A stretch of DNA of 64,000 bases, taken from NCBI GenBank assembly GCA_037576215.1, contig JBANDB010000010.1:3162001-3226000 (forward strand), in the 5' to 3' direction. Position numbers and translations under genes: made by a program. This DNA is from Armillaria gallica (Eukaryota > Basidiomycota > Agaricomycetes > Agaricales > Physalacriaceae). The notes beneath the pieces were generated by a model. The model worked only from the letters and a program-made list of their open reading frames with translations. It ran no database searches and had not been told where the DNA came from. Position 1 is the stretch's first letter. Each line of letters opens with the position of its first letter. Of the stretch, positions 2,414 through 55,200 are shown piece by piece.

Positions 2414-2830
2414 ACTTACCCCCACGAACTGTTTCCACTATGAACGTCTTTCCAGTACACACACTCGTCATTCACAATGCGTCGATACTACTCACTTCTC
2501 TAGGCTGGTTCACGCGTCTCGTTCTTCGACTCGAACGGTCAACTGTTAACCGGAGTCGTACGATCCACGAGTCGTTTGTCGTATGTTAGTAACCCTTTGT
2601 TTCGAAGACTTTGGAGTGGAATGATGCAACTGACATCTTCGAAACAAAGGGTTACTAACATACGACAAACGACTCGTAGACCGTACGACTCCGGTCAAAA
2701 GTTGACCGTTCGAGTCGAAGAACGAGACGCGTGAACCAGCCTAGAGAAGTGAGTAGTATCGACGTGCTGTGAATGACGAGTGGGTGTACTGGAAAGACGT
2801 TCATAGTGGAAACAGTTCGTGGGGGTAAGT
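2414..2830. repeat. Snap-back inverted duplication, arms 193 bp, spacer 31 bp
   Basis: The left arm (2414-2606) is repeated in reverse complement as the right arm (2638-2830), nearly identically. The right arm is absent from intron 2 of the paralogue at 46.2 kb. The extra segment is bounded by TGACATC on both sides (2631-2637 and 2830-2836), which suggests a template-switch or fold-back event using this short homology. The arms cover the leader, exon 1, intron 1, exon 2 and the donor of intron 2 of micro-gene copy a, so a transcript would fold into a very long hairpin. Confidence 0.85.
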
Positions 2831-2980
2831 GACATCAACATATTCAGGGTACGCAATTGGTTCTCGTCAAGCGTGATAATGGGGAGACCGTAATCTTGCC
2901 GTGAGAATCCCGTTATATGTTTTTAGTGCCCAACCTCTTACGAGCGTATACCTACAAGCGTGTTTACCATCAACGTCTAA
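2440..2980 (+). pseudogene. Micro-gene copy a (broken): four-exon family of about 59 residues
   Basis: This is a decayed member of the micro-gene family described at 46208-46550. Exon 1 is 2440-2454 (MNVFP). Intron 1 is 2455-2503 (GTACAC...CTCTAG). Exon 2 is 2504-2584 (starts AGSRVSFFDSNG, ends STSRLSY). Exon 3 is 2848-2900 (GTQLVLVKRDNGETVIL plus two bases). The exon 4 region ends with TAA at 2978-2980. Two defects are visible. Intron 2 has swollen from about 60 to 263 nt because an inverted copy of exons 1-2 lies in it. The intron 3 acceptor, TAG in paralogues, reads TATAC. A TATTTAA box lies at 2379-2385, about 55 bp before the ATG, as in the intact copies. Homology is certain from the sequence; non-function is inferred. 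Confidence 0.8.
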
Positions 2981-4639: not shown

Positions 4640-4874
4640 GTGCACGTGGGGTCGCAGGCGTGTTTCGAGGTCAGCTGTAAGAAAGGAAATATTGACATCG
4701 TCACGCTGAAATATGAGAACAGAACGCACTTATTCGAGCCTGATCTGTTATAGGGCATGCAAATAGTTCGTATCAGGTGCGAAAATAAAAGGACAGTAAC
4801 CTTACCGTAGCTGATAATCCTTTTTCTTGGTGTTGCTAACCTCGCGTATACGTAGGGCCGCCGGTGTGTTTTGA
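4640..4874 (+). pseudogene. Micro-gene remnants: exon-4 piece, then exons 3-4
   Basis: At about 4650-4690 lies a piece matching exon 4 of the micro-gene family, joined to unrelated repeat sequence exactly as at 31767-31830. Further on, 4754-4806 is an exon 3 preceded by TTATAG (GMQIVRIRCENKRTVTL) and closely matches exon 3 of the intact copy at 50.4 kb. The intron at 4807-4855 ends CGTAG, and exon 4 stops at TGA 4872-4874. Exons 1 and 2 are missing, so this is a truncated copy. Confidence 0.7.
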
Positions 4875-18132: not shown

Positions 18133-19515
18133 ATGTCGACTTCTCAAGAACCCGAGCACCCTATCGTAACCCTACTCAGTCTCCAAGAACATCTCGGAAA
18201 TCTAACGAGACAGCACAAAGGTCTGCATGTAAAACGCGATACTTCTGTTACTCAAGCTCTGGACAATGTCATTTCTTATCCATTTGTTTCGTTCAACCTC
18301 CCACCCTACTTGAGTGAATACTCGTTCGAGGGTACGGACGAAACAGCCTTCGGCGCCCTTGATTCCCCAAACACCGATGCTATCCGTTCCCAAAGTTTGC
18401 CTTCTTCCTTCGGAAGGGGCGACCAGACAGTCACAGACCCGACGTACCGAAATGGGCGCGAGGTTCGCGGGGAAGATTTCAAATGGTCCGACTCTCCGCA
18501 CGACGCAGCGGCCTGTCACCGCCTCGCTTTAGAGCTGAAGAATGTCCTAGAAACAACATTGTTCGTCGGAAAACAAGTCGATATCCGGCTGTATAAACTC
18601 GCATTGTACGATAAGGACGGGCACTTTGACTGGCACCGCGACTCAACACACGGGGACGACCATCATGCTACGGTCCTAGTCGCGCTGAACACCTCTTGGG
18701 AAGGGGGCTCGCTTCTCCTCCGCAACAACGGGCAAGAGATGACAGTGGATATGCACCCAAAAATCACATCCATTGCACCTCCAGAGACGTCCGAATCCGA
18801 ATCTGAACACGAACCTGAAACCCAGACCAGTCTCAAAGCGGCGGCGTTCTACACGGATGTAGAGCACAAGGTCGAGCCAGTAACTGAAGGGGTGCGGTTG
18901 ATACTCCAATACGACGTCTTCGTCTCTAGGGAGAAAGATGATGGCCACGATTTTGACGATTCTTCGCATCTCGACAAGATTAGCGGCAAATCGCGTCTGC
19001 ACTACAGCGATAGAAAAATCTATGACCACGAACTTCAAGCTCCCTTTGGCTCCTCGAACGAAGACTCCATCTCGTCTCTTGTGAAGGCCATCCAAGAGAT
19101 CATCGCTAGCGGTACGGAGGAAGTAGGCTTCCCGCTCCGCCACCTCTACCGCCAAGCGAGCATTTGCAAGGAGTATCTCAAGGGTGCTGACGCCATCATC
19201 TACGCGAAACTCAGTCAGGTATTCGATGTTTCTCTCGTTCCGGTGATTCTAGAAGAAAGCTCTTTAGACGGTGAATGGACAGGAGATGAAATGGCTGTAT
19301 ACAAGGCTTTGGGACACGGGGCGATAGGTGGGCATACGAGGAAAAAGGCAAGAACTTCCACTGAGTTCCATCTGAACCTCGTGTCACATGTCATGGAAAT
19401 AAGTAGTGAAGACTACATCGCGTACACGGGTAATGAGGCGCAGGAGGCTGAGTGCATGTACTTTGGAGGAGGAATGTTCATTCGCGAGAAGAGATTGAAA
19501 GCGCAAGTCGTTTAA
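18133..19515 (+). CDS. 2-oxoglutarate/Fe(II)-dependent dioxygenase (460 aa)
   Basis: This is a single uninterrupted exon from ATG 18133 to TAA 19513-19515. Iron ligands fit the prolyl-hydroxylase-like family: H168 and D170 in HFDWHRDST, and the distal H245 in YTDVEHKVEPV. R255 in EGVRLILQYDV is placed to bind the 2-oxoglutarate carboxylate. The N-terminal third (to about residue 145) is a fungal extension with the YSFEGTDETAFG segment. Residues 215-235 are an acidic low-complexity insert (ETSESESEHEPE) inside the double-stranded beta-helix. The C-terminal 200 residues end in the MYFGGGMFIREKR motif, which recurs in a broken copy at about 20.86 kb. The substrate is unknown; many fungal members of this type are uncharacterised. 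No signal peptide is evident, so it is probably cytosolic or nuclear. Confidence 0.85.
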   Translation: MSTSQEPEHPIVTLLSLQEHLGNLTRQHKGLHVKRDTSVTQALDNVISYPFVSFNLPPYLSEYSFEGTDETAFGALDSPNTDAIRSQSLPSSFGRGDQTVTDPTYRNGREVRGEDFKWSDSPHDAAACHRLALELKNVLETTLFVGKQVDIRLYKLALYDKDGHFDWHRDSTHGDDHHATVLVALNTSWEGGSLLLRNNGQEMTVDMHPKITSIAPPETSESESEHEPETQTSLKAAAFYTDVEHKVEPVTEGVRLILQYDVFVSREKDDGHDFDDSSHLDKISGKSRLHYSDRKIYDHELQAPFGSSNEDSISSLVKAIQEIIASGTEEVGFPLRHLYRQASICKEYLKGADAIIYAKLSQVFDVSLVPVILEESSLDGEWTGDEMAVYKALGHGAIGGHTRKKARTSTEFHLNLVSHVMEISSEDYIAYTGNEAQEAECMYFGGGMFIREKRLKAQVV

Positions 19516-25110: not shown

Positions 25111-27450
25111 GCATTGTTCCCTCGTGTCCCGGCGATGTCAACGACTTCACGAATCCTACCAGCCTCTCACGCCTCAGGACCCAGAGCTCTTCTTTTCTCC
25201 CTTCACCGTCACGGACCAACCTAATCTTCGAAATCGCCTAATGATGTCTCCAAACCGAATCCCCTCCCACCATATCACGCTGAAGCCTCCTCTCAGTAGT
25301 GAGGGCTCTTAGACCTGGACCTTACTGTCCATTACACCTTCTCCTTCCATTTCGTGACACTCTTCCCTTTCTTTGGTCAATTCACATAGCGTGTCCCTTC
25401 CGTTGCTTTTTAACGTGCGCTGTAGTACTTTGACCTCGACGCTGGGAACGGGAACCCATGCTCGAACCTCTCCCCAATACGCTTCGTATCGGCCCCGCTT
25501 TTTCGCCATAAACTATTGACGTTTAAATAGGCTATCTTGTAGCAGCCTTTTCTCTTGGCCCGCCGCTTACGATGTGATACTTGTGTCTCTCCTTTCATTT
25601 TCCGCCCGCGGAGTTTCGATGAACAGCGCCTTTTACCGCCCAGGAACCCTACCGTACCTCAAAGGGCTAGAGGGATCGCGAATGCCGCGCGTAGAAGGAT
25701 TATCGTCGACTTGGGTGTACCTCTCGGAGCATATCAATGCGGACAATCAAACTTCCGCAGGGGTATCGTGCCTGGGGATCGCGTGTCTAAACAGGCACAA
25801 TTATATGGGCGTAATAGCGTGCAAAAAATCAGGTGGGCACAAGTTGACTTTCAGATCGCAAGTTATATCCAAGTGCGCAAGTTCGTGTCCTCCCGCAAGT
25901 CGAGTGACTTTCTACTATGGCGATATACACATCAGCTTCGGGTGCTATCATAGAGGTCAGGATAAGGTCTGGGGACCGGGTTCTGAGTAGGAACCGGTTA
26001 CCGGAGCCGGGAGGACGATGTGGCCGACTTTGTTTTGTCCCTTAACACGAGTCTTGGCTCTATGGGTCAACTGTGGGTCACTGCAGACCAAAGTTCTTCA
26101 GCGTATTCATTTACTTTACCTATTTATTCATCTCCGTTTCACGCGACAAATTTATAATCCTAGCTTTAATTGTTCTACTGCCCATTACAGACTGTGAGCT
26201 GACGAGATATTGAGCTCAGTGAAACGCACTGAAAACGAATTTCTAATTTCTGGACAGTTAAAAGGTGTACGATAGGACCCACTGAACACCGTAGGTATTG
26301 TATTCCTTCTCAGAAATTTAGATTTTATACCGTACATAAATAATAATCAGTACGCGGCACGGAGATCTATATATCAGATGAAGTGCCGATCCGATCCCCA
26401 AAGTATAGCCAACAGCAAACTTGTGTAGAAGAACCCTTAACTTGCGGAGAATGTAAGCCAACCCGCACCCTAAAAACCAACTTGTGCCTGGAAAAAGTGC
26501 ACTTGCGCATGTCCGATTTATTACACGCTATTACGCCCATACAATTAATACGAAACCCGATTATCTCTCCCTGACGCGAAGCCTTTCTTTTGAAATTTAC
26601 AAGCGTCCCGATCGGACACGTCGACCTCGCTAGCATTCACCCCGAAGATATTGGAATTTCGGGAGAGTTTCTGATGCTCAGAAACTAATCCTGAAACTAG
26701 CAGTATACTATACATGGCCGCGCGCCCTGTCCCGACACAGTCGGGCGGGATATACCCCTCCCAGTTTCATGATTATTTTCTAGCGGTCAGAAACTCCTCA
26801 GAAATGTTCCGTTTTTCGGAGTGATTCTACGAAAGGCTTGCTACTGTTCAGTGTGACGACGAATAATCACTTCGTCTCACAAAAACCGCCATGGCGGTAT
26901 CCTCTCACGGTTTTGTGGATTCCGCGAATTCCGGCTTGGCTCTGGAAAGAACTTGTCCTCCACGAGGCGGCATCATTCATCCGAATAGCCGTCTCGTGTA
27001 CCGTCCATTATTGTGGTTGGTATAGACATTCAGGGTGTCTAAGTTTGCTTTATTAATCAAGGGGTCGCGGAACCTGTTTGACACGAGGCTTTTGTTTCTT
27101 TACAGTACAACGCGTATGGATCTAAAAAGACCTCGTTAACACTACCCGAGGTGATGGTACCCTCCAATATCTCAGTGCCTCGTCCCTTCACTCCAGCCAG
27201 GGGCGATTGATTCGGGAGCTGTCTCTATGTTCGAAGGGCGAATCTTTTTAGTTCTTTTGCAGCGTTACACTGATCTCGCACTGGTCCCGAAAGGAACTCC
27301 CTATATCATGGCGTGCTCAGGATCATCACCCAATCAGACACAAGGGATGACATCCTATATCACGATTGCATGTCTGGTCCATTCACTGTGCATGCTTCTG
27401 TGTTTTATGACGCATGGTGTGCTTATTTTTAGAGGAACTGCGAAGCTAAT
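25111..27450. other. Repeat-derived sequence without a supported gene
   Basis: 25130-25320 resembles 32.08-32.25 kb of block B. A segment around 25790-25990 is repeated in reverse complement at about 26365-26590 (shared ATGGGCGTAATAGCGTG and a CACAAGTT...GCGCAAGT pattern). No domain or conserved exon was recognised. Confidence 0.5.
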
Positions 27451-28033
27451 AGGAAGGGCCTGGGTGGTTGGACGCATGTGAGATCCTTGTCAGTATAGCG
27501 CGTCGCCGAGCTATGCACTAGTGACGCGCGTTTGTTGACCATCACTGTCATTGTCTCCATCTCTGACGCAGTGTAAACCTTGAAGCTTTGAAATTTGAAA
27601 ATTTGAAGCTTGAATTACGCTGTACATATCGGTTGAATCGGTTGAAGATGCACCTTGTCGATTCCCCGATGATGGGATGATCGCACGGACCCACAGTTAC
27701 TATCCGCCGGGCTATCTATGCTAGAAGGGGTGACAGGTACGATTGCCATGTGAGACTTGATTAGCTCTGTCTGAAGCGAGCGAGACTCGACCATTTCTTC
27801 AGAAAGTATGAGCGCGCTACGCAAGGGCTAATACGCGTCGATCTCGATCTCCTGATTAGCCTTTCACGGCGCGTTCCTATTATGTCTATCGCTCTTCGGA
27901 GTTCTCCCACGACCGACAGTCACTGGTTGCATCAATGCCTGCGTCTATTTGGTATAAATCAAGAATATTGAGTATCGCTACAGATGTTTTCTACTATTAT
28001 AACGATGACAGCCGTCGCTCTTCTCATCACAAG

Positions 28034-28370
28034 TTAAGGATTCATGCTAAATACGCTTGCAGCTCTACGCTTATGAGAGGTCGGCAACAAGGCAGAAAGC
28101 GGATTGCTCACGGTAAGGTCACAGTCCCTCCATTGTCGCGCTTGATGATGACAACGATCAGCGTACCCTGCAATACGTCGCTGTCAGTTTATAACTGTAT
28201 TTCGAGTCTTTGAAGCAAGGATACTCACATCCGACATACGACTCGTTGATTGTACGACTCCCGTTACGAGTCCGCCGATCGAGTTGAAAAACGACACGTG
28301 TGAACCAGCCTAGAGAAGTGAGTATCGACGCGCTGTGAATGTATTGTGTACGCACCGGAAAGGCATTCAT
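28034..28370 (-). CDS. Micro-gene copy c: 60-residue protein, four exons
   Basis: Minus-strand exons are 28356-28370 (MNAFP), 28229-28309 (AGSHVSFFNS...STSRMSD), 28112-28167 (GTLIVVIIKRDNGGTVTL plus two bases) and 28034-28064 (AASVFSMNP, stop TAA). Introns of 46, 61 and 47 nt all have GT...AG ends (GTGCGT, GTGAGT and GTGAGC donors). A TATTTAAA box lies at 28434-28441, about 64 bp before the ATG. The reading frame is open throughout. Exon 3 carries one extra codon compared with its paralogues. The protein is rich in alternating hydrophobic residues and turns, suggesting a small beta-barrel, with no signal peptide. I know no function. Support comes from conservation of splice sites, phases and exon lengths with the copies at 46.2, 50.3 and 51.9 kb. 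Confidence 0.75.
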
Positions 28371-30018
28371 AGAGGGAATAGTTGGTGGGGGTAAGTGCTG
28401 ACTGAGTTACCCTAATTCTACGCGACACGTTGGTTTAAATACTTCCAAGCTATAGGACTAATTTTCGAAGAAAGATCTATGCAGCTGACGCGAAACTTGG
28501 ATGATATTGAAGGCATGGAGACTGTTCTGATGAGAAACTCCCGGATCATCAATCAGGGATATCGAAGACTTGTTTTGCTCCCGCCAGTATTATAACGGAT
28601 GTACAATATCGTGATACGAGATAAATGGTTACGAAGGGAAACATGAGAGTCCGTTTTTAAGAACTGCCTGGGCCGCCTGTTTCGAGATACTCCTTGCAGC
28701 GCTGCGCGACCAAAATTACTGTCGCTAAATAACAGGGAAATGAAAGCAACGGCTGTAATCCTACCGGGGGACTAGAGAACCCTCACAGACGCCCTTCCTC
28801 CGAGTCGGAGTCCCTAATTTAAGATCACGTTAAATGAACCTTAGGTAGTCTTGGATACCTAGAAGTTTAAACTTGACTCATAGAGACTTCATCGGCAGCG
28901 TTGTTGTGTGGTGAGTGTGAAGACCACTGGAAAATCTTGACTATGATGTGTTATCCATAATGAACAATTATGACGGGGATCAGGAAGCGTTTCGTACTCC
29001 AGCATGTGAATACATGTGCATCGCGCCTGAGAGGTCGTAGTTGAAACAGGTCCCGCCAAGATGAGCTCGAGGAAGGATTACTAAGATCTAGGCTGTCACG
29101 CACAAGGCCGAAAACTGTAGATATAAGAACAAAGTGGCAGTATAGCAGGTCACTGTGAAGTCCGCGGGTTTGAAGTCTTCTGGCATCTTCAAAAGGGACA
29201 AGACCGAGACCAAGAAGTTTACCGACGGAGTAGTTAGGAAACGGAGAGACATGATGGATGTCGTTGTAGGATACAGCTTTACAGGTTCGCATGATAGTTA
29301 CTTGCGTTAGTGGATGTGACGTCGAGAACACCATTCTGACGAAGATGGCAATACGAGGAGGATGGGTGAGCCAGATGACACGAGTCTTCATTATGCGTGA
29401 AATGGCGGTACGAGTTGTCATCTGCTGATGCTTAGTATGTCCACTGATTCCTTGGCCTATACAATGAGTTCTACGTAGTATCATTTGTGCATCCTCACCG
29501 TCTTAGCGATCAGCGCGCGTCGATGGGGAGAGGATTCCGAAGAGGGAGCTGAAGACCTCGTAGGACGAGCAATGCGATGAGAAATTTTGCTAAGACCAAC
29601 CTCGATACTACTCCGGTATAGATGACGATGCTGTCTCCACGAAGACGGCTGCAGAATAGACGGTAAAACCAGGTAGAGATCTATTACAGCTCCCGAGCAA
29701 GGAAGGCAGTAAAGCATATAGTTCCGGAAACAAGACCAGTAGGCCGCCTAACAGCCGAGATCGCGTGTATGCACCTTAGTCACAAGAGGTCATCCGTAGC
29801 CGAGAGGTTTGACCCTGGCTTGTTTTAGTCCGCCGAGCAGGTGTCGTTACACTGTAAAGTCATGATCGAAGTTCGAAGAAGTGAATTGATTCATGAAGAT
29901 CAACTAGACTCGGACATGACAGTGATACTGATCAAGCAAGGACACGAGCAGTTGGAGTCCTGTATGCGTAGTACGGCCTAGCCGCTGTGCAGAGAAAACC
30001 GTTACTAGTTGGAAGAAA

Positions 30019-38044: not shown

Positions 38045-39364
38045 TGATGAGCCTCTAGGCTCTGTACGCTCTGAAATCATGAACACCACTTACAATTTAT
38101 CGCCTATCTCCCTCACATGGACTTTCAGTAAACCAAACGTTGCAAGTCTGGCACAGGTCAAATCATATTAAATCTCCCACTCCATGTGAACTTTCACTTC
38201 GATATCCATGAGTCATTGTGCCTCCAGGCACATTGATTGCCAATCCTTCTGCAGTAAATTAGACACATGTCATTATTCTAGGCCTTTGCACATGGACAGA
38301 GCCATATGGTCATGTGGTTTAACTATGCGTAGGCTATGCCTAGCTACAGATTCTCAAGAGGCCATATGGATATGCCTTTACAGCTTAGAAATATAGTAGA
38401 GATTAGTGAGCCATTAACTGTGGCTGAGTAAGTAGTAAGTAAATTAGTAAACCTTCTGTAGCTTTATTAGGCTACGCAAACTTTTAATAAGTATGCACAG
38501 TAGAGTAGCACACAGTATAGTGAACTATGGTTACAAATAGTTTGCTACGCTCACAAATCATGTACTGTGGTTATCAAGCCAAGGTAAAAGTTCACTTACT
38601 TAGCAAGTACAATTCTGTAGTATAAAAACCGATGGACTGTAGATAGGGAAGAAGAATTCTCCCTGGAGGATACATACACCACACATACCACCCAATACAC
38701 ACAGATTAAAGTTAATATCTCTACGTTCTTAAGAGATATAACACTTTGCAAAGTTTCTCTAAACTTGCTAGCTACCAAGTGTTCAATAACTTGATTCATA
38801 TCCTCTTGTCCAAAACACAAATAAGGATATCCTAAAAAGACCACCTTGTTTGTCATTCTCATCTCATAAATTTGCATACCTGAAGACTTCAAAGGGGTAA
38901 TCCATAGCTAGGATTCTGAACTTAAGTCTCTAACACCAACAGCATACTGTTCCTATAAGTTAGGGACAATACTAATTCTAGTTTCTCTAGTTAAGCCAGC
39001 TCCATCTCTGTGTTTTTCTGAGAAAGTATGTGAGTATAGGAGAATACCTTCTACTGGAACCATAGTCAGGATTCCGACACCACATAGTTCACGCTGCATC
39101 TAGGTCACCCCCACTCAGCATACATCCACGTTTATGCATCTTTTCCCTCCCAGGAAAGTTCGTGTACATACTTTGAGCCTCTGAACAGCCTTCAGAGAAT
39201 CATAACAAAGTGTAGCAATCCTTCACTACATCACCAGAAGCTACAGTCATCACACAGAGGTGCAAGACTAGACTCACTAGAACCTGCCTTCAGATTCTGT
39301 GTTTGGTTACACTTGCCGTTACAGGTCTTGTGTTTTCTGCCCACAGGAGTCAATAGGTTCATTA
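38045..39364 (+). repeat. 5' long terminal repeat
   Basis: Its last 280 bp (from CACATAGTTCACGCTGCATC) match 42920-43200 closely. The middle part is more diverged from the 3' copy, which carries additional TGCACAG-type short repeats at about 42.06-42.15 kb. Confidence 0.85.
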
Positions 39365-39551: not shown

Positions 39552-41609
39552 ATGGCTATGTCTCATCCACAGATGCCTGCTGTTACTATGAGTACACAGA
39601 TGCCATTTCAGAGAGAGCACAGTGCACCTTCAATTCTTGATGAAGCCAGTCCTGGACATGAACTTTCATGTTACTTCCAGGATTTGGAAGCTCTCTTCAT
39701 TCATCATCACATCACCAACGACCATGAAAAGAAGTGCTGGCTGACCTACTATCCTGGAGTCACAGTTACAGACTTCTGGGAGAGTTTGGTTGAGTTTAAC
39801 AATGCCAACACCACCTACGAGAACTTCAAAACCACAATCTTGAAGCAGTACCCTGATGCAGATACCAGTCACAAGTATGAGCACATAGACCTTGAACAAG
39901 TTATTGGAAAATATGCTTGTGAGGTCACCTCACTTGCTGCATTAGGAGCCTACTATCGAGAGTTTTATCCTAAAGCCCATTTCTTGGAGACCAAGGATCA
40001 TCTTGCAAGTTCAGAAACTGGAAACCTGTTCAGTAAAGGTTTTCCAACTCGCATTTGGGATGCTATTATGCATCGTCTCCAAATCAAGCTACCAGATCAC
40101 TACCCTTCTGATCCCTACTTGCTAAATGAGATTCATGAAGCTGCGCAATTTGTCCTTCAAGGGACAAATCACAGTGAAAGTCTCTATGCTACTACACCCC
40201 AGTTCTATTACTTCACGAACCATCAGCTATCTATGCCTCAGCCAGCTTCAGATCCAATTACAATAAAATCTGAAACTTCTGAACTTTCTCTTCATCTCCA
40301 ATCTATAGAAGAGAAATTTTCGCAGTTGGCACAGTTCCAATTACAGAGCCAAAAAGATTGCTATAGTTCTCAACAGCACCACCAGAATCTTGACCAGCAA
40401 AATATGGTTTGGAATGCCCAACCACTTGCATCTTTTGCCCAGTCCCAAGTACCAACAAAAATTCGGAACTACCAACATCAAGGACCAAAAGCTAGACCTT
40501 GCAAAGCTGATACTAGGCAAAGACTACAAAATCTCCTTGCAAAGTCTAAAGCAATAGAAGCAGAGATAAAAAGCCTACAGCAATGCATAGCTTTTTCTAT
40601 TCCAAAGCCAAAAGTTCACTTAGAAACAGGCAAAATTTACAAGGCTAGGTACCAAAGGAATGCAGACCAGGGTCCTCAATCTGAACCAAGAACTTCACAT
40701 ACACCCATTCTTGATTCTTTACCACCAAAACACAAACTTTATATGCCCAAACAAGTTTGGAAACTTTCTAAATTACTGTGCAAAGCAGCTAGACCTATTC
40801 TGAACCTAGAAAACCAGTTTTCTACTACGGAAAATGTGCAAAATTTGCAAACTTTGCCTTCTAAACCTAAGAGAGATGTTAAGTCATCTACTCCGAAGTT
40901 TATAGCAAAGGAAACTTTGCAAAAATTCCCCTTGAAAGCCAAGAATCAATACAAGGATTCAACACCATTACCTCTGTATTATGCACCACCAACTATGTGA
41001 AATATTGGAGCCAAACCAGATGTCCGCAAGCGACCAAAGGACAGAAATTTGACCTCCTTACTTTGCAAACCAACCAATACTGTTTCAACCTTGAAACAAT
41101 CCCATGTTTGCTACTCATCCAATCGACCCAAAAGTTCACTTCCAGTCCATAATTCAACCCAGACTAATGGCAAGCAAACAGACAAGGCCTTGCGACTTAA
41201 ATGTGCAAGGGAATCTGCTCCAATTCGCTTGATATACCCAATCATAAACCATCAGCTTGAAGTTGAATGTGTTTTTGATTTAGGCTTACAAATCATCTCC
41301 ATGTCCAAAGCTATATGCTAGCAGTCAGGCCTAGCTTATGACCCAACCATGGTGGTAGAAATGCAATCCTCAAATGGTACATTGAATAATACTCTTGGAA
41401 TAGCTCATGATGTCCCATTCATTGTTGGTGACATTACACTCTACCTCCAAGTACATGTCATTCGTGAATCAGCCTATGATGTTCTACTTGGCAGGCCATT
41501 TGATATTCTCACCCAGAGCATAGTTCGCAATCATGCAGATGAGTCTCAGAGTATCACTATCCATGATCCAAACACAGGAAAAAGAGCCACCATCCCTACT
41601 CATCCTTAA
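39552..41609 (+). pseudogene. Gag plus retropepsin-like protease of the LTR element (broken)
   Basis: The first open stretch, 39552-41000, encodes a Gag-type protein (482 codons). It has an N-terminal capsid-like helical region (LEALFIHHHITNDHEKKCWLT, TTILKQYPDAD, FPTRIWDAIMHRLQI) and a Gln/Lys-rich tail without a clear CCHC knuckle. It stops at TGA 40998-41000, a codon that could come from CGA. Coding resumes in frame-compatible pieces at 41049-41321 and 41349-41609 with a retropepsin-like domain. The active-site motif reads FDLGLQIISM where D-S/T-G is expected, and YDVLLGRPFDIL is the conserved second half. A TAG separates the two pieces. No reverse transcriptase, RNase H or integrase follows. 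Confidence 0.75.
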
Positions 41610-41808: not shown

Positions 41809-43200
41809 TGATGAGCCTCCAGGCTCTGTATGCTCATAAATTTGCAGATCTATAAAGATCTAGTGACATTCTGCCCCTTCCGAACTTTCATATCAAAGCA
41901 CAGCCATGATTATCAGGCACTTTGATCCTGAATCCTATTATGCAACTCTAATGACAAGTTAGCAAACTATTATAATTCACTACAGTCAGCAGCAGTTAAA
42001 GCCTTACTAAGGCTGTTTACTTTGCACAGTTCATAGCTTAGTAAATGCACCAGAAGTTCACGTTGCAGCAGCATTGCACAGTAACTGAAGCTACATGCAC
42101 AGTTATGCACAGCTATGCACAGTTGCATAATTCTTGGAGTTGCACAGTTGCTGACAGATCTCAACTCAGCATTAGTAAAGAAAGGACAAGAATACTCTAT
42201 TGCATAGTAAATAGTTTGCTTGTGTTGTGAATTAACAGGGCAAGGACAAATGTAGCTTACCTACAAGGAATTCTCAAAGTAGTATAAAAGTAGCTAACTA
42301 AAAGTATGAAGAGGAAGGAGGAGGAGACAAACTCCAGGGAGTTACTTACCCACAAGTCCACTACCTTACACATCTCCTAGATCCAATACACACACCCAAA
42401 GTTATTGCTTCTCTACTGTTCATTAGAGAAATAACACTTAGCGAACTTTCCCTTCGCTAATAAAAGTTTGCTATAACTTCGCATGCCTACCTCTGCTCCA
42501 AAAACTTCGCTAGGAAACCTTTACTGGTTACCCTTGCAAAGCATTCTTGACGTTTTAAGTTTGTTTACATACCTGTGCACTTTAAAGAGCAATCCACAGC
42601 TAGGATTGAAGCCTTTAGCCACTAACAACCCAGTTCTACTGTTTCCAAACTTAGGAAACAACACCACTTAACTCTTATAGAGTTAGACACCTTGGGGTCT
42701 TAGCTACCTTTCTCATAGAAGAGAAAGTTCACCACAGTTGCCCTTGTGATTCGACTCAAGATTGATACTGACTTGCTTGATATTAGGATCATTTAGAGCT
42801 ATATCTTGTTTGCACGTATTTCATCTTGGACAAAACTTCGCTCACACCTGGAGCACCAGCACCACTTAACTCACATAGAGTTCCCCAACTGAATCTGCAG
42901 CTAGGATTTCGACACCACATAGTTCACGCTGCATCTAGGTTGCCCCCGCTCAGCATACACCCACATTTATGCATCCCTTCCCTTCCAGGAAAAGTTCACA
43001 TACATACCTTGAGCCTCTGAACAGCCTTCAGAGAATCATAACAAAGTGTAGAAATACTTCGCTACCTCACAGGAAGCTACAGTCATCGTATGGTGGTGCA
43101 AGACTAGACTCACTAGAACCTGCCTTCAGATTCTGTGTTTGACTACACTAGCTGTTACAGGTCTTGTGTTTTCTGCCCGCAGGAGTCTCTAGGTTCATCA
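41809..43200 (+). repeat. 3' long terminal repeat
   Basis: It starts TGATGAGCC right after the polypurine tract and ends TTCATCA, directly before the resumed exon of the disrupted gene. Confidence 0.85.
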
Positions 43201-44708: not shown

Positions 44709-45093
44709 GACTCATATCATAAAAATTTGGGGGAATTCCCAGGGAGTTCCTGCAGATTTATTGAAAGAACTGGCATCGGGCAATTGTCGCTGCAGCGTGT
44801 GTATATGGGTGTGGTGACAGGGGGGAGAAAGAGCAACAACGTTTAAAGCAAGGGCAAAGACTGACCCTTATCCTGAAATTCCAGCTGAGAAATGATGTTG
44901 GGCTTGCTGACTAACACTGGCAAAACCCGGGATAACCAAAATGCACTGCCACTGAAGACCTACCCCAAAAACCACATAAGACCAAGCCTGTATACACAGG
45001 ACTTGGAAAACCATTGATTCTGACCATGTCCCCTTCGCTTACATCTGCTCGTTACCAAAGGATCAACAACTTGTCTGTTATTGCTTCATTCTC
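44709..45093. other. Right arm of the 12.8-kb element before the helicase fragment
   Basis: Nothing recognisable; low CpG. This is presumably the 5' flank of the helicase fragment. Confidence 0.4.
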
Positions 45094-45105
45094 TTGGAAT
45101 TTTTG

Positions 45106-45440
45106 ATGACATGTGGCCAAGAAGTTCCAAGAGAAGTCCAGCTCCATGCTGCTCTTGCTTCTTATGAGCATCGAGACTGCACAGTCATTGCAGGGACAGG
45201 ATCTGGAAAAACTCTCATTATTGCACTTCTTATTTTGATGGACAATCCATCCGATGGTGTAACAATTACTGTGTCCCCATTAAAACAGCTACAGCTGACC
45301 CAAGTGCATATTTCTAATGTCTTCCTATCATCATCAACCAATAAGCTTACAGGCCAATGACTTCGTCAATAAATACAAGATAGAAACACTAGCTATAAAC
45401 GATGATACTTCAAGGACTCCCACATACTGGAATGTAAGTG
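45106..45440 (+). pseudogene. N-terminal fragment of a RecQ-like DNA helicase
   Basis: The first exon (from about 45106 to 45303) encodes the Q-motif-like PREVQLHAALA, the Walker A loop AGTGSGKTLIIALL and ITVSPLKQLQLTQ (motif Ia). A 49-nt GT-AG intron (45304-45352) joins it to ANDFVNKYKIETLAINDD, the expected continuation. Homology ends near 45440; motifs II to VI are absent. The sequence type matches the RecQ-like helicases that are abundant in mushroom genomes. Lying at the edge of the element, just inside the terminal repeat, it is either the last piece of an element-encoded helicase or a captured host fragment. Confidence 0.75.
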
Positions 45441-45857: not shown

Positions 45858-46207
45858 CCCTGAATCCTGCTGTGCATAATCAGCTGATAAGGCACATTCA
45901 CGGTTCCGTCGATTCTCCGATGATGAGGTAATCGAAAGGGTAATTTAGCTCTGTCTGACACGGGACTGGACCCTTTCTTCTAGAAAGTATAAACGCGGTA
46001 CACAAGGCTAAGACGCGTCGATCTCGTGATTAGGGTTTCCACGACGCGATGCTAATATATATATGGGACTTTTCTTGTTCTCTCTCAAGTCACGATCAAC
46101 AGCCACTGGTAGCATAAATATCTGGGTCTATTTGGCATACAAATCAGGAACATCGTGGGTATTGTTACAGACACTTTCTACCATCGCCCACCTCTTCTCG
46201 TCACTGT

Positions 46208-46550
46208 TTAGACGTTGATGGTAAACACGCTTGCAGCTCTATGCCCATAAGAGGTTGGGCACTAAAAATATATAAGGAATTTCTCACCGCAAGGTTACGG
46301 TCCCCCCATTATCGCGCTTGATGAGAACTAATTGCGTACCCTGAAATATGTTGATGTCAGTTGCATCATTCCATTCCAAAATCTTCGAAACAAAGGGTTA
46401 CTAACATCCGACAAACGACTCGTGGACTGTACGACTCCGGTTGACAATTGACCGTTCGAGTTGAAGAACGAGACGCGTGAACCAGCCTAGAGAAGTGAAT
46501 AGTATCGACGTGTTGTGAATGACGAGTGTGCGTACTGGAAAGACGTTCAT
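46208..46550 (-). CDS. Micro-gene copy b: 59-residue protein, four exons (family reference)
   Basis: Minus-strand exons are 46536-46550 (MNVFP), 46406-46486 (AGSRVSFFNSNG...STSRLSD), 46288-46340 (GTQLVLIKRDNGGTVTL plus two bases) and 46208-46238 (AASVFTINV, TAA). Introns are 49, 65 and 49 nt, all GT-AG, in phases 0, 0 and 2. A TATTTAA box at 46605-46611 lies about 55 bp before the ATG. No stop or frameshift is present. The predicted protein has strand-turn-strand spacing (RVSFF, TGVV, QLVLIKRDNGGTVTL) like a small beta-barrel, with no signal peptide or membrane span. I cannot name the family or a function. It is probably missed by gene callers because exon 1 has five codons and exon 4 ten. 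Confidence 0.75.
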
Positions 46551-46604
46551 AGTGAAGACAGTTCGTGGGGGTAAATGCTAACGAAACCGACGCGACCCAA
46601 AAGC

Positions 46605-46611
46605 TTAAATA
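46605..46611 (-). promoter_or_regulatory. TATTTAA box of micro-gene b
   Basis: The same box at the same distance (about 55-64 bp before the ATG) occurs before copies a (2379-2385) and c (28434-28441), which suggests a conserved core promoter. Confidence 0.55.
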
Positions 46612-49600
46612 CTTTGATTAATCTGGAGCAAACGGGCCATGAAACTGAGCTCGAACTCGAGTGATATGGAAGGCGTGGGGACGGCGTCGGATGAAGTCAA
46701 TCTCAAGTCATCAACCAGGGTATTGAAAATTTACCGTGCCCTCATCACCAAGACTTCTCACAGCAACAATGTGGCTACAGTATCGCTTGCTTTTGTTTTG
46801 CTGTAAGGCACAAGTACATCTCCTGAGACAAAGAAGAGCGTGATAGATATCCGGTTACGAAGGAGAGCCTGAGAGCTCGTGTTTAAGAACATTGTGATCA
46901 GTGCTGGGCTGCTGGTTTCGACTCCGAGATGGTCCTTGCAGTAGCAATCTTGTACTGAGTGACTCATCATACTGCCGCTAAAGAAAAGACATAGTACTGA
47001 AGTGAGCGTGAAGGCTATAGGTCGGAAGGACTCCATCAATCCTATTGAGAGACGTGAGAAACTCACAGTCGCTCCTTCCTCCGACTCGGTGTTTGAGATC
47101 AACTACCTTCGGCGGTCGTTAATAGGTCTGATTCAAAGTTTTAAACATCTTGTGGGTATTGGGGGCGAATGTGAAGACCGCCCGTCGCCGCCCATAATTG
47201 AATAATTTTTGACTAGGATGTGATATCGAAGCTGTATTAAGACGTGCCAGAGTAAATCCTGATGTATGCCATGGTAAAATAGCGGAAATGGTGGTACTAC
47301 ACTACTGTAGATGAAATTAATGGATATACACCATACAAGACGACAGGAATGATAGGTAGTATCAATTGCTCATACCGACTTATACTCGATGTCCTAGCTG
47401 ATAACCATCTCATCACGCACAATAATTGGTGATCATTCATACCAAGCGTATCCGACTCCCAGACTGTCACGAAATGCACATGTCCATTGAATGCGTGACA
47501 AACTACACGGAACGAGCTTTGAAAATCATCACTTTGAAGGCGAACTATGTTTTTATGGTACAGAGCGCCAAATGACGGGGATCAAGGACTGTGTCGTACT
47601 CCAGCCCGTGACTGTCAGTGGGAGACAGTAGCATGTGGAACGTGCCCGATAGGTCGCAGTTGAAATAGGTCCCCCAGACGAGCTCGAGGAAGGATTACGA
47701 AGGTTCTAGGCTGTCATACACTAGGCTTTAAGTTTCAGGTAGAAGAACAAAGTGACAATATAGCACATAGATGGAGAAGCCGTCACTGTGAGATCCGGAT
47801 TAAAGTCTTTTGACGTATCTAAAAAAACCTGGCCTAGATAGAGGGGTACAACGACCGAAGCTGGGGGATATGACGGATGTCGATATACGCCACAGCGGGA
47901 TTCATCACGAAGAGCTGATCAACTTCCCTCTCTCACAGAGCTTTGCAGGCTTGAAAATTCCATGAAAATGACTTTGGTTGATAGATATGACATCGAGACG
48001 ATTAGCCTTCTGGCTGAAGATAGTGGTGCCAGGAGGGCGAGTCAGCAAGATAACTGGAGCCTTCTTTACGCAAAAAGCGGGGGTACGGGTCGTCATCCGC
48101 CGCTACTTAGTACGTCGACTGATCCCTTGGTCTTACAATGACTTATCTGTAGTATCATGAGTGCACTCTCACCATCTCGGCGACCAGCACCGCGTTGATG
48201 GAGAGAAGACTCCGAATAAGGCTGAAGACGAACAAAGCGAGGAGAAACGGTGTTATTTTCCTAGACTAACCTCGATACCAATCCAGTATAGATTCGAATG
48301 GTGTCCCCACGATGTCATTGAAGACGGCTGCAGAGGGAAGGAAAAACCAGGTAGAGCCCTATTACAGCTCCCGAAGCAGGGCAAGACAGCATGTAGAGTG
48401 ATATGGACTTGGTTCCGGGGTCATTATGACGAGTAGGATGCGTAACGGCTGAGATAGTGTGTGTGCGTCCTAGTCATGAAGGGTCGTCTGTAGCCGAGTG
48501 ATTGTGCCCTGCCCTCATCGTAGTTCGCCGAACAGGTGTTCACTGTTATATAGTCGTGATCGAAGCAGTCGGAACTGATTCACGGGGAACAACTAGAATT
48601 AGACGCGGCAGTGACGGCAATAATAGTCAAGCAGTTATAGAAGCAGCGTTGATCATACACGGTCCGACCCAACCGCCGTTGGCGGATACCTGTTGCTAGT
48701 TGAAAGAAACAATGTCAATCCTCATGTTTAAGATTTCAAATTGACAGTCACAATCGGTCACACTTTCGCTGATCGCATCGTTTGTCATTTCCCCTATTTT
48801 CCAAGTGTCGTCAGTAATCTTATTGGCGATCTACCTTACCTGCTTTGTTACCAGAGCGAAGGACTATCGCTATCCTCTCAGCTCATGAGCGGGTGTTAAA
48901 TTCTCAGTAACACACCCGACCGGTGACAAAGAAATGACTGAACCCAGATCCGTAATGACTAGCCTCGGTACCTGGTGCGTAACTATATTCTTCGAGGACC
49001 GAGATATGAAATCAGTGCTAGGGGAATTCCCAGAATTTCATGGGAAAAAATGAAGCCTCTAGGTGAGTTTATACTTAGGGCCGGTCTGACTCGTCATTCG
49101 ACACCTCTAATAGGCTCCCTGACCATCCAAATATGGAGAGTCAACCGGCCACCATACATCTCTAAAACACGGAGAAGGCTCCAAAACTCATTCCTTATTC
49201 CACGCTCTGTTCGCCGCACAGAATAGCGTCACTATGCAGGAGGTGAAGCGTTGAGGTACGAGCGCATGGCATCTGATTATACTACTTCCCTCATTCGCTC
49301 TTTTCTCGACCGCAGCCTCTAGTCTAGACTTGAAGAAAAAAATTATGAGTATGTTCATGCACCGTCTTACTTTGTTTTCAAACCTCTACCCACGATCACA
49401 GATAACTGGAGAAAGTGAAAGTTGAGCGCATTTTTATCAGCCCGGGCAATGTAAGAAAGCAATCAAGAGCTCGCATTAGAACGCCTAATTTCTTGCGACA
49501 TATCCGTCGACCGTGCACTTCCGTGGCCCGTTCTCTTTCTCTCTCTGAGTTCTGTTGTGAAGGTGAGCAAGATTAGAGCATCTTCTCCCGAATATTAGTC

Positions 49601-50324
49601 CCTCCTCATTAGATTCTACGATATGGTCTGAGCGAACTTCCTCGGGCGTCACCTCCTACTCTGTTATCGTTCTTATTCTGAAGTCTATGTTGTAATCATC
49701 AAGCTAAATTCTCAATGAACTGATAGGAGTTATGCCTTAAGACTTGCAGCGGTATGTGGCATAATATGAGCAAAGCTTTTCTGCCTTATTGATGTCATGA
49801 ATCCAGGAGTTTGATAGTATGCAGCCTTTCCTAAGACCAGCAGAATACTCACTCGGTCGGCTTTGAGTGTAGCAGTCGATAACGAAGTGCGCCTCCAAGT
49901 CCTCTCTCGCTTACTTCCTCATGTGAACTTTCATTAGATGCTGTTTCGCCTTACTGGCTCTCTTCACCCACAGATCCATCCAATGACCTTCACCTTCGAT
50001 TCTTGACTTTTGAGGTTTCACGGCCGGAACACTGACGAAGTAAAGAACCAAGGTTCCTTTCGTCGTCTGCTCCCAGTAAGACTACTCGGCGGTCAATCTT
50101 GTTACGAGATATCAGTGCAAGCCTAGCTGATGCCAGGGAGATAGCAAGACCGCTTATACATAACGGTTGGCACATATCTTCCTCGTCGTCTCGCTCAACT
50201 ATATTTACTATATTTGCTCGCCACGAAATCAAGAAGTACAAACAAAAGGCTGATTGAGTAGGACGATAGGTCCGTTATGTTCTCATATTTCCATGCGACG
50301 ACCCCAACTTCTCCTTTCCCACAG

Positions 50325-50645
50325 CTAACCTCGAAACACACCTGCGGCCCTAAGTACATGCGAGGTTAGCGACACCAAGAAAAGGGTTTATTACCTACGG
50401 TAAGGTTACTGTTCTTCCATTTTCGCACCTGATACGAACTATTTGCATGCCCTATAACAGATCAGACTCAAAGGTTTGTTATTTGAGAAAGCGAACTCAC
50501 GTTTTCCATGGTACTGGTCGACTCGACAATGCCTCCTGTGAGACGTCCGTTCGAGTTGTAGAAGAAGATTCTGGAACCAGCCTATAAGGGTAACATAGTA
50601 ACGAATTATGAAAGATACGAGGAAACGTACCGGAAGTGAGCTCAT
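50325..50645 (-). CDS. Micro-gene copy d: 57-residue protein, four exons
   Basis: Minus-strand exons are 50631-50645 (MSSLP), 50501-50581 (AGSRIFFYNSNGRLTGG...STSTMEN), 50399-50451 (GMQIVRIRCENGRTVTL plus two bases) and 50325-50349 (AAGVFRG, TAG). Each of the three introns is 49 nt with GT-AG ends (GTACGT, GTGAGT and GTAGGT donors). The frame is open. It is more diverged from copies b and c than they are from each other, especially in exons 1, 3 and 4. The AGSR, FFYNSNG, TGG, STS and TVTLPAA positions hold. Exon 4 is six bases shorter than in b and c. Remnants at 4754 and 31767 belong to this subgroup. Confidence 0.72.
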
Positions 50646-51895
50646 TGTATATGAGGGACTATTCACCGGAATTTGGATGGGCACGATTCATCGATATAAG
50701 TACCTTGTCTGTCGGGGAGTATCAATGAAGTATGAACATCTGATGAAGACACGCCACCTTGAGCTGAAGTAGCCGCTGTTTCGGAAATTTTTCTTTGGAT
50801 AGTAAGCAATAAGATGAGTATATACATAATCCCGCGAGCATCAACCCGACATGCCCGGTATGAGTATATTATCTTTACCGTTATTATCGTAGCTCCACAC
50901 TCGCTTCGATATGTTTCCGGGAATAAACAAAGATGAGATGTTGCGATACTACTGTCGGAATCCATGTTCTGGCGAGTGACCAGCCACGCTACCTTTGGTG
51001 ATTAAGTCGTACTCAATTCCAGTGATCGCTGTACAAGATGTGGAAACCCATACTATGGAATTCATTCGACGTCATGTAGATATGAATGCCACAGGAGCTA
51101 GAGTTAAAGAATGCTGTACTGAAATGCCGATGGCAAACAAGGCTCTTTGGATATTAATCATGAACACTGGACTCTCATATAGCTAACAGTGATCTCAAAA
51201 AGATGAACATGCGAGCTGTTCCCGCCACAGCTCGCGAGTGAGTATAATAGATTGATAGAGGACAGGCGCAGATTCATCTCCCTATCGCTAAACCGTGAAC
51301 TCCTTTCGTCCATCTGACAAAGCAACACTGCGACTGTGCCATGCAGTGGCATGCACAAGGCCGAGTTCAGCATCCTGGGATTGTCGATCACGGCAACGGC
51401 TACCTAGCTGTGGACACGCCCGGAAATGGACTTGTTGTGGCTTCCCAATGTGCGTGCAGGATATTACGTTCTAGACGCAGAAGCTCATGTCCGGAATCAG
51501 GATGCTTAAGAAGCACCTCTATTTGAGGCATATGATTCAAATTGTTCCCTATCCAGTCCCAGGCGGGAGTACACTGTGCCAAGACTGTACTTCGGAGATG
51601 AAATGAAGATTATATTAAGTATATTCGTGACTGATTAAAAGTGGGCGACATGATTTCTTTGAGGGGAGGGGTCACCATGATAGGATGTACGCGTCAGTCC
51701 TCCGATCATTTGGGCGTGAGTGACCCGACTGAAAGAAACATTCTGGAAAATGGTGCGAAACTTTTTATCATCGTCAAGAGGTGCCTACATCTCTCTTGTG
51801 TAACACTCAGAATATTCGAGCCGCTTGGACGCCACAACTGACCCGTTCCGCCGTTTATGCGTGAAGACTCCCATCCTTATCGTTGTATTCTCATA
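50646..51895. other. No supported gene
   Basis: A 63-codon open frame at 50995-51186 (HTMEFIRRHVDMNATG) has no support beyond being open. No paralogue in the window was noticed. Confidence 0.4.
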
Positions 51896-52237
51896 CTAAC
51901 CATTAGACACACCCGTGGCCCTAAGATCTGACGGGGTCAACGGGTCACTACCACTACGCAGCTGAATTACTAACGGTAAGGTTACAATTCCTCCACTGTC
52001 GCGTTTGATGACAATCATGAAAGTACCCTATTAAAGGCAGTGAGAGGACGCATCCTTCAAGAAAAATGATATTCGCGTCGGACATGCGGCTCGTCGACTC
52101 CACGACGCCTCCTGTCAGACGTCCAGCGGAATCGTAAAAAAAGACGCGCGACCCGATCTAGAATTAGGACACGGTCTTTTGTAAGCTACGAAAAGGGGCT
52201 GAAAAATGCGAGGAGAGCATGCTGTAAAGACGTTCAT
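51896..52237 (-). CDS. Micro-gene copy f: 57-residue protein, four exons, two GC donors
   Basis: Minus-strand exons are 52223-52237 (MNVFT), 52077-52157 (IGSRVFFYDSAGRLTGG...STSRMSD), 51975-52027 (GTFMIVIKRDSGGIVTL plus two bases) and 51896-51920 (ATGVSNG, TAG). Introns 1 (65 nt) and 2 (49 nt) start with GC (GCATGC and GCGAAT) instead of GT; intron 3 starts GTTAGT. All end in AG. The protein frame is fully open and the core motifs are kept, so coding constraint seems present, but the weak donors may reduce or prevent splicing. If unspliced, it is a recent pseudogene. It lies outside the clearly recognisable block repeats. Confidence 0.6.
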
Positions 52238-55200
52238 AGACGAAATGATATGCTGCAAAGTACTTATCCGATATGGTTATCTAGGCGACGCCGCGATATA
52301 GATGCCTTCTCAAAACAAGTCATGCTTTCGCTTTAAAAGGTCACACATGTGAACAGAGTCAGAAGCCGGCTCCGGTGGAGACCATGGGCTCGGCGTTGCA
52401 GGGACAGAGTGAGGTAAAGAAAGGACTGTGTGTGAACCCGTTGTTGTAGATTTCTGAGAGCGCTTTTCTTCTGTCGAAAGACTTATACCGATGTTGGTAG
52501 TGTATCGTGTTGTTTTCTAGAAAACTAGTGCGAGAGTGCAAAGATTCCTGGCCCAAAGTGAGCTATGAACAATGAGAAATTATGGCGAGACCTCAAAACC
52601 TTGCATTTGAGCTCGTTCATGAGATCGCGAGGGACCGGACAGCGCCACCGCTCCTTATGTCGTGACTCGTGAAGTCAGATGCGCGACACAGAAGCAAGTA
52701 CGAAGATTCCAAGGCTTCCTGGCAAGGTGCAGTACTCTTTACCTGACAACCTCGTAACTTCTGTAAACCTCGCTGACTGGGAGTTCCCTTACAAGTAAGT
52801 ATTCCGATCTTTTTCGCACGAGGTCAGTAACGATACCCACGGAATCGGGGACGGGAAGTTATAAAAAACTCGGACAGCGGAGTGATTACATCCGGTGTAT
52901 TCGGCACGTGAAACCACGATTCTGGGTCAGATACTCCAAAGATACTCCATAAGGGCCGGTGCGACAATTTTGGAACAACGAAGAGTTCCAACATGCGACC
53001 TCTAGAATGCCAGAGAAACACATATCTCGGTGCAAAACGATGTGAATTATACTAGAATTAGAAGATATGGAACATGATATTGAGATATGTATTGCTATCT
53101 TTAGAAGTTGTAGCTTGCTTGAATATTCTGGCTCGTTCTCCCGAGTCCATATTTTACGGGAAAATGACTCATTTCCGGGTGAATCTGCTCCTTTGACAGC
53201 CTATTAATTCGACGGCATTATCCCAGAGGTGTTCGGATACCAATGTGATATTCCCCCATCCACCAAAACCACTACAGCCACTAGCGATTGATGTACCACT
53301 GATTGACTGAAATAGGTTTAAACTTTTCACAAGGCTGGGAACTCTTAGTAAAATGAATAGAGAAACAGTTTTTAATTTTCCTTCGAGTGATGATATGATG
53401 CAGATGTCAGAATTAAAGAAAACACGCTTACAATTGACCATATAACGCCCGATCTTGACTACTTGATGCGTCGGACGTGGCTAGAGCGTAATATATAAAG
53501 AGAGTCATCGTAACATCGCAGACGGCTGTACTTAGTTGATAGGGGGATACATATTATAGTTCCTGAGTCCGAGAGTGCGGGTAAAACAGTGATAGTATGA
53601 AAATTAAAAGCGCCCGGCGTCAGTGGGTATACATGATGTTGAAGTGTAATGTCCTCCCTGTGCACAGGGAGAGGGGGGCAATCATTATCATGTACCTATC
53701 TCGTAGCTCTGGCATCTCCGGAAGTCGAAAAGGCACGGTGTTTCAATTTCGGATGAAGAGGCGCCGGGTTTGTGTCATCTTTCCTCTTCGGCACCAAGCA
53801 GCGACCCCGGACCTGTGATGATGTACACACCACTTTCACAACGGAACCAAAGATGCCGACGTCCTAGGGTGGATATTATGCAGTCTGCATGACATACGGA
53901 CATCGAACGTTCTACCTATACGCGCAAATTGTTTGTATTGTCCGTGTATGTCTCACCTTTGTTCCTTTAACTTAACCCAGATGCACAGTATCCTGGCAGC
54001 CAAGCCCTCTGACAATGGCTCATAGAAGCCGTTTAATTTGGGTCTAATGCGCATGACATGTGCCGACTATACATTTCTGTAATGTAGCCGTAGTGATCTA
54101 AGAATTATAACTGTCTCAGAATAATGTAGGTGGCGTATCTGAGAGGGCCAGAAGGGGACTGTGACATTGAACATAGATACCACGGACCACCGGAGCTTGA
54201 ACAGGCATCCCGAAAAGAACTCTCGCGCAATCGCTACCCTGCACAAAATCTCTGCTAGGACTTCGTCTGAAACAGAACCAAAAAGTCTTCGTCGTGTGAC
54301 ACGATGACTGCATGCACCGACGCCATGTTCTGGCATCTGCAAAATCCAGAAGTAGCCTGTCAGTTGTGTAGTATCTGAATCCATATCGTCAATAGGGTAA
54401 AGCCTCTCATCATCAGACAAAACAATACCGTAATGATGCTGTGAGTACCAGGTGACTGCAACAACTGCTGAAACCCCATTCTTGCTCCTTTTAAATTAAT
54501 GCAGTCAGCCCGACACAGAATGGGTTTATCTATCGAAATCCATCACGAAAAACAGTTTTCTTCGGCTTGCATCATTCTCGACATAATCTTTAACCCCGCA
54601 AGTCACTTTAGATCCGATGTATCTTATGTCTCTTTGAGTGTCGGCATATGTAGACCATCACACCTCATTAGGACGGTTACACGGGGAACTCTTTCGAGGA
54701 CTGCCACAAGGTATCAGAGTGGTACGCCTGCCACGCCTATCGAAAGTCACCGAGATTCTGTCCATCAGTACAATAAGGTTCCGAGATCAATACAGCCAGG
54801 CTGCGGAGGAAAAAAGCAGGGGATGACAGACAGGCGCTATGTGAACCAATCGGAGGACGGAAGAATATCGTCGTGACTGTAGTCTGCGACACGAAATAGA
54901 ACGAGATGGTAAGTTCCCCGAGGGTGAGGATATAAATTGGGGTACGGATCACTCCCCGAGGAGCCTGGGTGCATGAGGAATGAGTCCCCAATCCGAGTGC
55001 CAGATTTCCCAAGTCCTCCCTGGGAACACCGATCGTAAAATTGAATTTGGTCCGTCATGATTTTGAATAATGTGTAAAAGAAATATGCACGAATTTTAGA
55101 GTGATATGAGTAAGGAACGGCAGGGACGATGCAAGAAAATGGTAATCGTGGACTTCGTTAGTCAATTTTACTCGCTAAGCTGGAAATACGGGTCTCAAAA

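Follow-up and report, generated by a model that had tools for sequence, protein, structure and literature searches.

Four short four-exon genes of Armillaria gallica as probable members of an Agaricomycete family of predicted SH3-like mini-barrel proteins

The window analysed here is a stretch of 64,000 nucleotides of the Armillaria gallica genome (positions 3162001-3226000 of contig C10, in a genome of 86 Mb and 28 contigs), and its minus strand carries four short genes, copies A, B, C and D, each composed of four exons and encoding a protein of 57-60 residues (Table 1). Indeed, the four genes that a sequence-only reading had proposed, with their lengths and exon pattern, were recovered exactly, and the splice phases agree in all four enumerated models. 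The exons measure 15, 81, 53-56 and 25-31 nt and the introns 46-65 nt, with introns following codons 5 and 32 and the codons of an LP motif. Exhaustive enumeration yields 607-3371 open four-exon readings per copy; the models in Table 1 were picked by mutual agreement among the four copies and by the best score against a family profile, which itself contains the four window proteins.

The four proteins are less uniform than had been proposed: the core KRDNGGTVTLP is exact in copy A, but not in copies B, C and D. Copy B reads TVTLR, in place of a proline (Pro50) that is present in 25 of 26 intact copies of the genome and in 28 of 28 relatives, and that is also absent from two further intact copies on contig C12. 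Copy C is without the RDNGG core, starts with MSSLP and has ENGM in place of DGT. Copy D starts with MNVFT, and its introns 1 and 2 are bounded by GC-AG, the GC donor at intron 2 being common to the four intact D-type copies. Furthermore, 23 of the 26 intact copies have a TATA-like element 53-71 nt upstream of their start codon, compared with 1.3 copies on average (maximum 5) for shuffled upstream sequence; this enrichment is descriptive, since the pattern was defined after the sequences were inspected and copies of one type are related.

The copies as a set are under purifying selection. For this analysis, 26 of 46 exon-2/exon-3 pairs were retained on the basis of canonical exon lengths, a choice that favours intact copies and removes stops, not missense change. 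Parsimony on their tree gives 220 synonymous and 222 nonsynonymous changes (three stop-involving changes left out), i.e. a ratio of nonsynonymous to synonymous rates (dN/dS, omega) of 0.40 (p 5.7e-21; all p-values of this analysis assume independent changes). The wrong reading frames of the same copies give omega 1.66 and 1.35, and the reading of these genes as chance open reading frames (ORFs) was rejected on this comparison. The four window copies alone also show omega 0.40 (p 1e-6), and separate types are constrained as well (D, 0.24, p 1e-4; E, 0.37, p 0.006; C, 0.44, p 0.021), with a pooled within-type ratio of nonsynonymous to synonymous differences per site (pN/pS) of 0.17-0.44. In twelve comparisons between types that include a window copy, introns diverge at 29-63% of the sites aligned, more than the amino-acid-changing sites do.

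At least 48 family loci, each with an identifiable exon 2 and in most cases an exon 3, were found genome-wide by DNA and protein searches, a lower bound given that only the best-scoring candidates were evaluated. The full four-exon structure is present in 28 of the 48 (A type, 2; B, 6; C, 4; D, 4; E, 6; C12 type, 3; and single intact copies of other types on contigs C18, C4 and C10). The 48 include a rearranged window locus, counted once, and three C12 loci (two intact, one broken), and the intact count excludes a GLR-type copy, C10a, which is perhaps intact via a shifted acceptor. Not counted among the 48 are a C-type piece at C11:103512, a piece at position 1069010 of C20, exon 3 of a D-type copy at C10:3159035 and, in the window, the pieces starting at 4754 and 6388. 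A real coding family of four-exon genes is thus borne out by the genome copies and by their constraint, and neither dN/dS near 1 nor equal decay was found in the wider set. The sequence-only reading had rightly recognised a family of coding genes with four exons, but had overlooked the broken pieces of the window (Table 1), the amplification across the genome, its placement near contig ends, the decayed copies on C20 and the spread of the family in Agaricomycetes.

The window copies lie in duplicated blocks that match other contigs (Table 1), the B block having shorter matches also to C13 and C22. Further C-D pairs, spaced by about 1.5-2.3 kb, are present on C13, C9 and C11 (where C is broken) and also on C10, to the left of the window. 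The duplicated stretches reach up to 3.5 kb. A transposon as the carrier of the copies was rejected on these alignments, which often stop at the edges of the compared flanks. The shared edge at window position 45858 is peculiar to the window copy, the alignment of C19 with C10:3165 continuing past it. Because the ends follow the flank edges and this common edge is specific to the window copy, the blocks look like segmental duplications. Regarding location, 26 of the 48 loci lie less than 200 kb from a contig end, and 8 of 14 clusters (grouped at 250 kb) lie within the same distance of one, compared with 13% of the genome (p 1.2e-4; both limits were set after the locations were known); a prior grouping into 16 clusters gives p 4.0e-4. 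TTAGGG arrays were found, among the matches listed, at the left ends of C4, C9 and C11 and at the right end of C10, from which the window copies are about 91-115 kb away. Two clusters are of separate note. In C20:907000-1228000, nine family copies and one fragment are spread over 320 kb, none of the nine having a canonical model, and family genes seem to decay there. In C12:2.02-2.21 Mb, away from contig ends, stand four C12-type copies that keep Trp13; one is broken and three are intact, of which two are without Pro50, and this cluster is perhaps the closest to the founder.

Relatives reach E-values down to 1.7e-29 in a search with a profile built from the four window proteins, and successive profile searches gathered 32, then 90, then 160 proteins. 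The best 120 of the 160 were examined by name, and those with an organism name are, as far as checked, Agaricomycetes (Agaricales, Boletales, Atheliales, Russulales, Gloeophyllales and Amylocorticiales). Many mushrooms already have annotated relatives of 57-59 residues, in some cases under automatic Tudor-type names; the entries stand as hypothetical proteins and their names conflict (Hva1 Tudor, LSM, SLA1 homology, DCD, cyclophilin-like). The proposal that such genes escape gene prediction therefore holds in part: a number of gene models in Armillaria seem faulty (P0025 and P0009, with extra or mis-spliced residues, and the A. gallica protein P0032, with an unrelated start, in which the exon-3 peptide of copy A is also present), but the relatives of many mushrooms had been predicted. 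No Pfam family scores above cut-off in the window proteins and relatives scanned, and no publication on this family was found among titles and abstract starts, a search outside which most subscription journals lie.

Introns 1 and 2 are visible also in environmental relatives. In brief, P0131 and P0076, encoded on contigs 1.0-1.4 kb long, consist of MNAFP, 20 extra residues (V...Q), an exon 2 ending in MAD, 18 extra residues (V...Q) and an exon 3 ending in LP, and the two inserts are consistent with in-frame retention of introns 1 and 2 at the window positions; a near-identical protein, P0092, is without both inserts and has a fourth exon. Intron 3 is seen outside Armillaria just as reading frames ending at LP. 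The B, C, D and E types, sorted by eye, occur in other Armillaria species too, with adjacent locus tags for B and D types in A. mellea (1069943; 1069944) and for C and D types in A. ostoyae (18184; 18185), and this numbering suggests that the gene cluster predates the split of these species. By sequence and introns, the window copies belong to an Agaricomycete mini-barrel family that is widespread but unnamed.

The small beta-barrel that had been suspected from an alternating hydrophobic pattern is supported by structure prediction: the model is an SH3-like barrel superposing on Tudor domains (Tudor/Royal superfamily fold), and that the genes are real and the proteins of this fold class is very probable. 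Sequence searches of the PDB gave a best E-value of 0.13. The other Pfam scans gave sub-threshold names alone, and a scan of 57 relatives, listed without cut-offs, gave most often FLgD_tudor in 10 (best E 2.3e-3), DUF1408 in 5, BAHCC1-like_Tudor in 3 (2.6e-3) and CSD_RNase_II in 2 (2.3e-4). A genome search with PF21744 gave one sub-threshold place on C8 and no family locus, and detected none of its controls. In a viral structure library, the best match (E 5.9e-4) is an uncharacterised siphovirus protein, followed by other phage and giant-virus proteins, which is taken as a common fold.

Two positions distinguish the Armillaria copies from their relatives. Outside the clade formed by Armillaria, Desarmillaria and Guyanagaster, Trp13 is present in 28 of 28 relatives and Tyr21 in 27 of 28, whereas the 26 intact A. 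gallica paralogues have Y (14), F (10), H (1) or W (1) at position 13 and T (9), G (8), N (6) or R (3) at position 21. Across three protein searches, the pair is found in 101 of 104 proteins outside the clade and in 0 of 39 inside it (proteins sorted by name, unnamed environmental ones counted outside, the largest search entering with 120 of its 160 matches, and 10 of 153 left out because the pattern could not read the two positions). With the family drawn by sequence and introns, this difference marks the clade as a divergent branch of it. Four of the 39 have W13 with R or H at position 21, like the C12 type. Since Mucidula, which belongs to the same family (Physalacriaceae), retains both residues, the pair was probably lost after the Mucidula split. 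By strand register, residues 13 and 21 would lie opposite each other on the first hairpin, both directed outward.

The explanation favoured here, with a probability of roughly 0.6 as a whole, is that copies A to D code for proteins of an old family of SH3-like, Tudor-like mini-barrels in Agaricomycetes. The ancestral gene would have encoded a stand-alone mini-barrel of about 58 residues with fixed intron positions; it would have been altered in the Armillaria-Desarmillaria-Guyanagaster lineage and multiplied in A. gallica into several sequence types, largely as blocks of kilobase size were duplicated close to contig ends. Of the copies located, over half are intact and, as a set, under purifying selection, and others have decayed. 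Inside the cell, the proteins could act as small binding modules that recognise a peptide, a modified side chain or some other small partner, with the first hairpin as ligand face, where Trp13 and Tyr21 of other Agaricomycetes would stand opposite each other and form the binding site. Armillaria would have retained the fold and altered the hairpin face, so that partners may have changed or been divided among its copies. In this scheme, the structure of the genes, their constraint and duplication, the spread of the family and the lack of the pair in the clade are computed results, the barrel fold is predicted, and the binding role and the altered face are inferred. An intracellular binding role with its site on the first hairpin is reasonably probable; the changed face as an adaptive event is doubtful, and it is proposed only tentatively that Armillaria dropped the Trp13-Tyr21 recognition pair and amplified the scaffold near chromosome ends, giving intracellular one-domain adaptors or decoys that differ in their surface residues and are maintained by selection. 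An unnamed, widespread family thereby gains a fold prediction, a signature of intron positions and a single candidate site, and the Armillaria branch is a natural experiment, in which the barrel is the same, the copies are many and a near-invariant pair is missing; should this pair bind something, binding is expected in relatives outside the clade and not in Armillaria. Genes of 57-60 residues over four exons can also be real and sometimes misannotated.

Several points weigh against this explanation. The predicted structure is that of a single protein, a B-type relative; Foldseek found no match in the PDB at E 0.001 or better (best, 4.3e-3); and the fold says little on function, because SH3-like barrels are common. 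The facing of W13 and Y21 was deduced from strand register, not coordinates, and P0092 is regarded as transcript-derived from its missing inserts. Moreover, the B type alone is not significantly constrained (omega 0.62, p 0.07), two within-type pairs reach a pN/pS of up to 1.02, and copies B and D may be weakening, because B has lost a mostly conserved proline and D has two GC donors.

The proteins could instead be chromatin readers that bind methylated lysine or arginine as the PHF1 Tudor domain does, the Armillaria copies being extra or altered readers. Many top structural neighbours of the model are methyl-lysine readers, and the aromatic pair on the first hairpin of nearly all readable relatives outside the clade would suit such a role, but all readable proteins of the Armillaria clade are without it. 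In addition, when PHF1 is mapped by structural-alignment ranges (model 1-59 to chain 28-83) with PHF1 letters that we assume to be correct, its cage would fall near family positions 14, 20, 40-41 and 46-47; aromatic residues are rare there in the family (one copy has F41), so a canonical aromatic cage is unlikely, and the reader role as a whole seems unlikely too. The cage residues are given as W41, Y47, F65 and F71 (PMC7492083). A regulator of metabolism comparable to Hva1 of Cryptococcus, with the NADPH pool or a metabolic enzyme as its target, is quite improbable: some relatives bear automatic Hva1-type names and the model has structural neighbours in common with Hva1, but many folds of the same class have these neighbours, the NADPH link of Hva1 is indirect in its description (PMC5008624), and none of 57 family members matches PF11160 (Hva1_TUDOR) at E 1. 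The four window proteins give no PF11160 match at E 10 either, in a search whose filters drop most matches above 0.1, and a genome search with the PF11160 profile carries little weight, its controls having gone undetected. Slightly less credible still is that the copies are mostly decaying passengers of chromosome-end duplications, functionless in themselves, as the nine C20 copies without a canonical model, the rearranged window copy and the weak constraint of the B type could suggest; the C, D and E types are each constrained, and four types occur in other Armillaria species. Finally, a secreted effector family, which amplification, divergence and location near contig ends in a plant-associated fungus could evoke, is highly improbable, no signal-peptide-like start being seen by eye in the proteins and relatives occurring in fungi of different lifestyles.

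Other features of the window include an ORF with a P-loop (AGTGSGKT) at 44980-45360 (+), adjoining the B block and helicase-like by eye, perhaps a piece of a helicase gene. At 39053-39362 and 42888-43198, direct repeats of about 310 bp (3.8 kb apart, 85-88% alike) enclose an ORF of 482 aa at 39552-41000 (+) that has no match in a Pfam scan, and together they may form a long terminal repeat retroelement. Tandem related ORF sets at 10464-11760 and 12587-13875 (+) have the motifs AAKEVTR and YLYGNGRLPN in common; the three ORFs scanned (10464-11252; 11194-11760; 13342-13875) have no Pfam match. A 460-aa protein encoded at 18133-19515 (+) has a 2OG-Fe(II) oxygenase domain (PF13640, E 3.9e-8). Rfam gives no match in the window at gathering scores.

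Table 1. Family genes, upstream elements, fragments and duplicated blocks in the window (window coordinates)
Feature	Position	Strand	Details
Copy A, A type, four exons, 60 aa	28034-28370	-	exon enumeration and family profile
Copy A exons	28370-28356, 28309-28229, 28167-28112, 28064-28034	-	lengths 15/81/56/31; introns 46/61/47
Copy A TATA-like element, TATTTAAA	28434-28441	-	71 nt 5' of ATG
Copy B, B type, four exons, 59 aa	46208-46550	-	Arg at Pro50; exon enumeration and family profile
Copy B exons	46550-46536, 46486-46406, 46340-46288, 46238-46208	-	lengths 15/81/53/31; introns 49/65/49
Copy B TATA-like element, TATTTAAG	46604-46611	-	61 nt 5' of ATG
Copy C, C type, four exons, 57 aa	50325-50645	-	exon enumeration and family profile
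Copy C exons	50645-50631, 50581-50501, 50451-50399, 50349-50325	-	lengths 15/81/53/25; introns 49/49/49
Copy C TATA-like element, TACTTATA	50695-50702	-	57 nt 5' of ATG
Copy D, D type, four exons, 57 aa	51896-52237	-	exon enumeration and family profile
Copy D exons	52237-52223, 52157-52077, 52027-51975, 51920-51896	-	lengths 15/81/53/25; introns 65/49/54
Copy D TATA-like element, CATCTATA	52297-52304	-	67 nt 5' of ATG
Rearranged B-type copy	2440-2980		no canonical model; exons 1-2 on +, 2440-2637
Rearranged B-type copy, exons 1-2 again	2635-2804	-	inverted
Rearranged B-type copy, 3' part	2827-2980	+	
C-type exon-3 fragment	4754-4807	+	
D-type exon-2 fragment	6388-6423	+	weak, E 0.01
Duplicated block with A	27344-29819		90% to C19:165070-167538; one edge is the limit of the compared flank
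Duplicated block with B	45858-48069		80-89% to C19, C21 (twice), C9
Duplicated block with C and D	50259-53692		76-91% over 1.5-3.5 kb to C13, C11, C9 and C10 left of the window

Compared with known systems, the window copies form one family, by profile search, with uncharacterised Agaricomycete proteins such as Tricholoma L208DRAFT_1402881, Laccaria LACBIDRAFT_316028 and Coprinopsis CC1G_05100 (57-62 aa), which have the same length, pattern and visible intron positions; outside the Armillaria clade, such relatives have few entries per species (clustered entries, not copy counts). The R67 (type II) dihydrofolate reductase has a similar fold with a sequence identity of 15-18%, but it is a four-chain enzyme, and the family is likened to it by fold alone. 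The Tudor domain of PHF1 and PHF19 is part of a larger protein, unlike a stand-alone mini-barrel, and its four-residue aromatic cage appears absent at the mapped family positions. The nearest described protein in kind, by fold class and similar size, is Cryptococcus neoformans Hva1 (PDB 4P5N), which from the name of PF11160 we presume to be the founder of that family; 4P5N is not among the best 50 structural neighbours of the model, and the likeness is known via common neighbours. Hva1 is a stand-alone protein of 75 aa encoded by three exons, with 2RK1, 4BD3, 3P8D, 3QII and the TDRD3 Tudor domain (3PNW) as reported structural neighbours (PMC5008624), and the same neighbours are found for the model, with values of 8.8 (2rk1), 8.6 (4bd3), 8.6 (3p8d), 8.9 (3qii) and 8.6 (TDRD3, as 6v9t). 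Both are small stand-alone fungal proteins encoded by genes with introns, which differ in size and exon number (about 58 aa and four exons here) and in the PF11160 profile.
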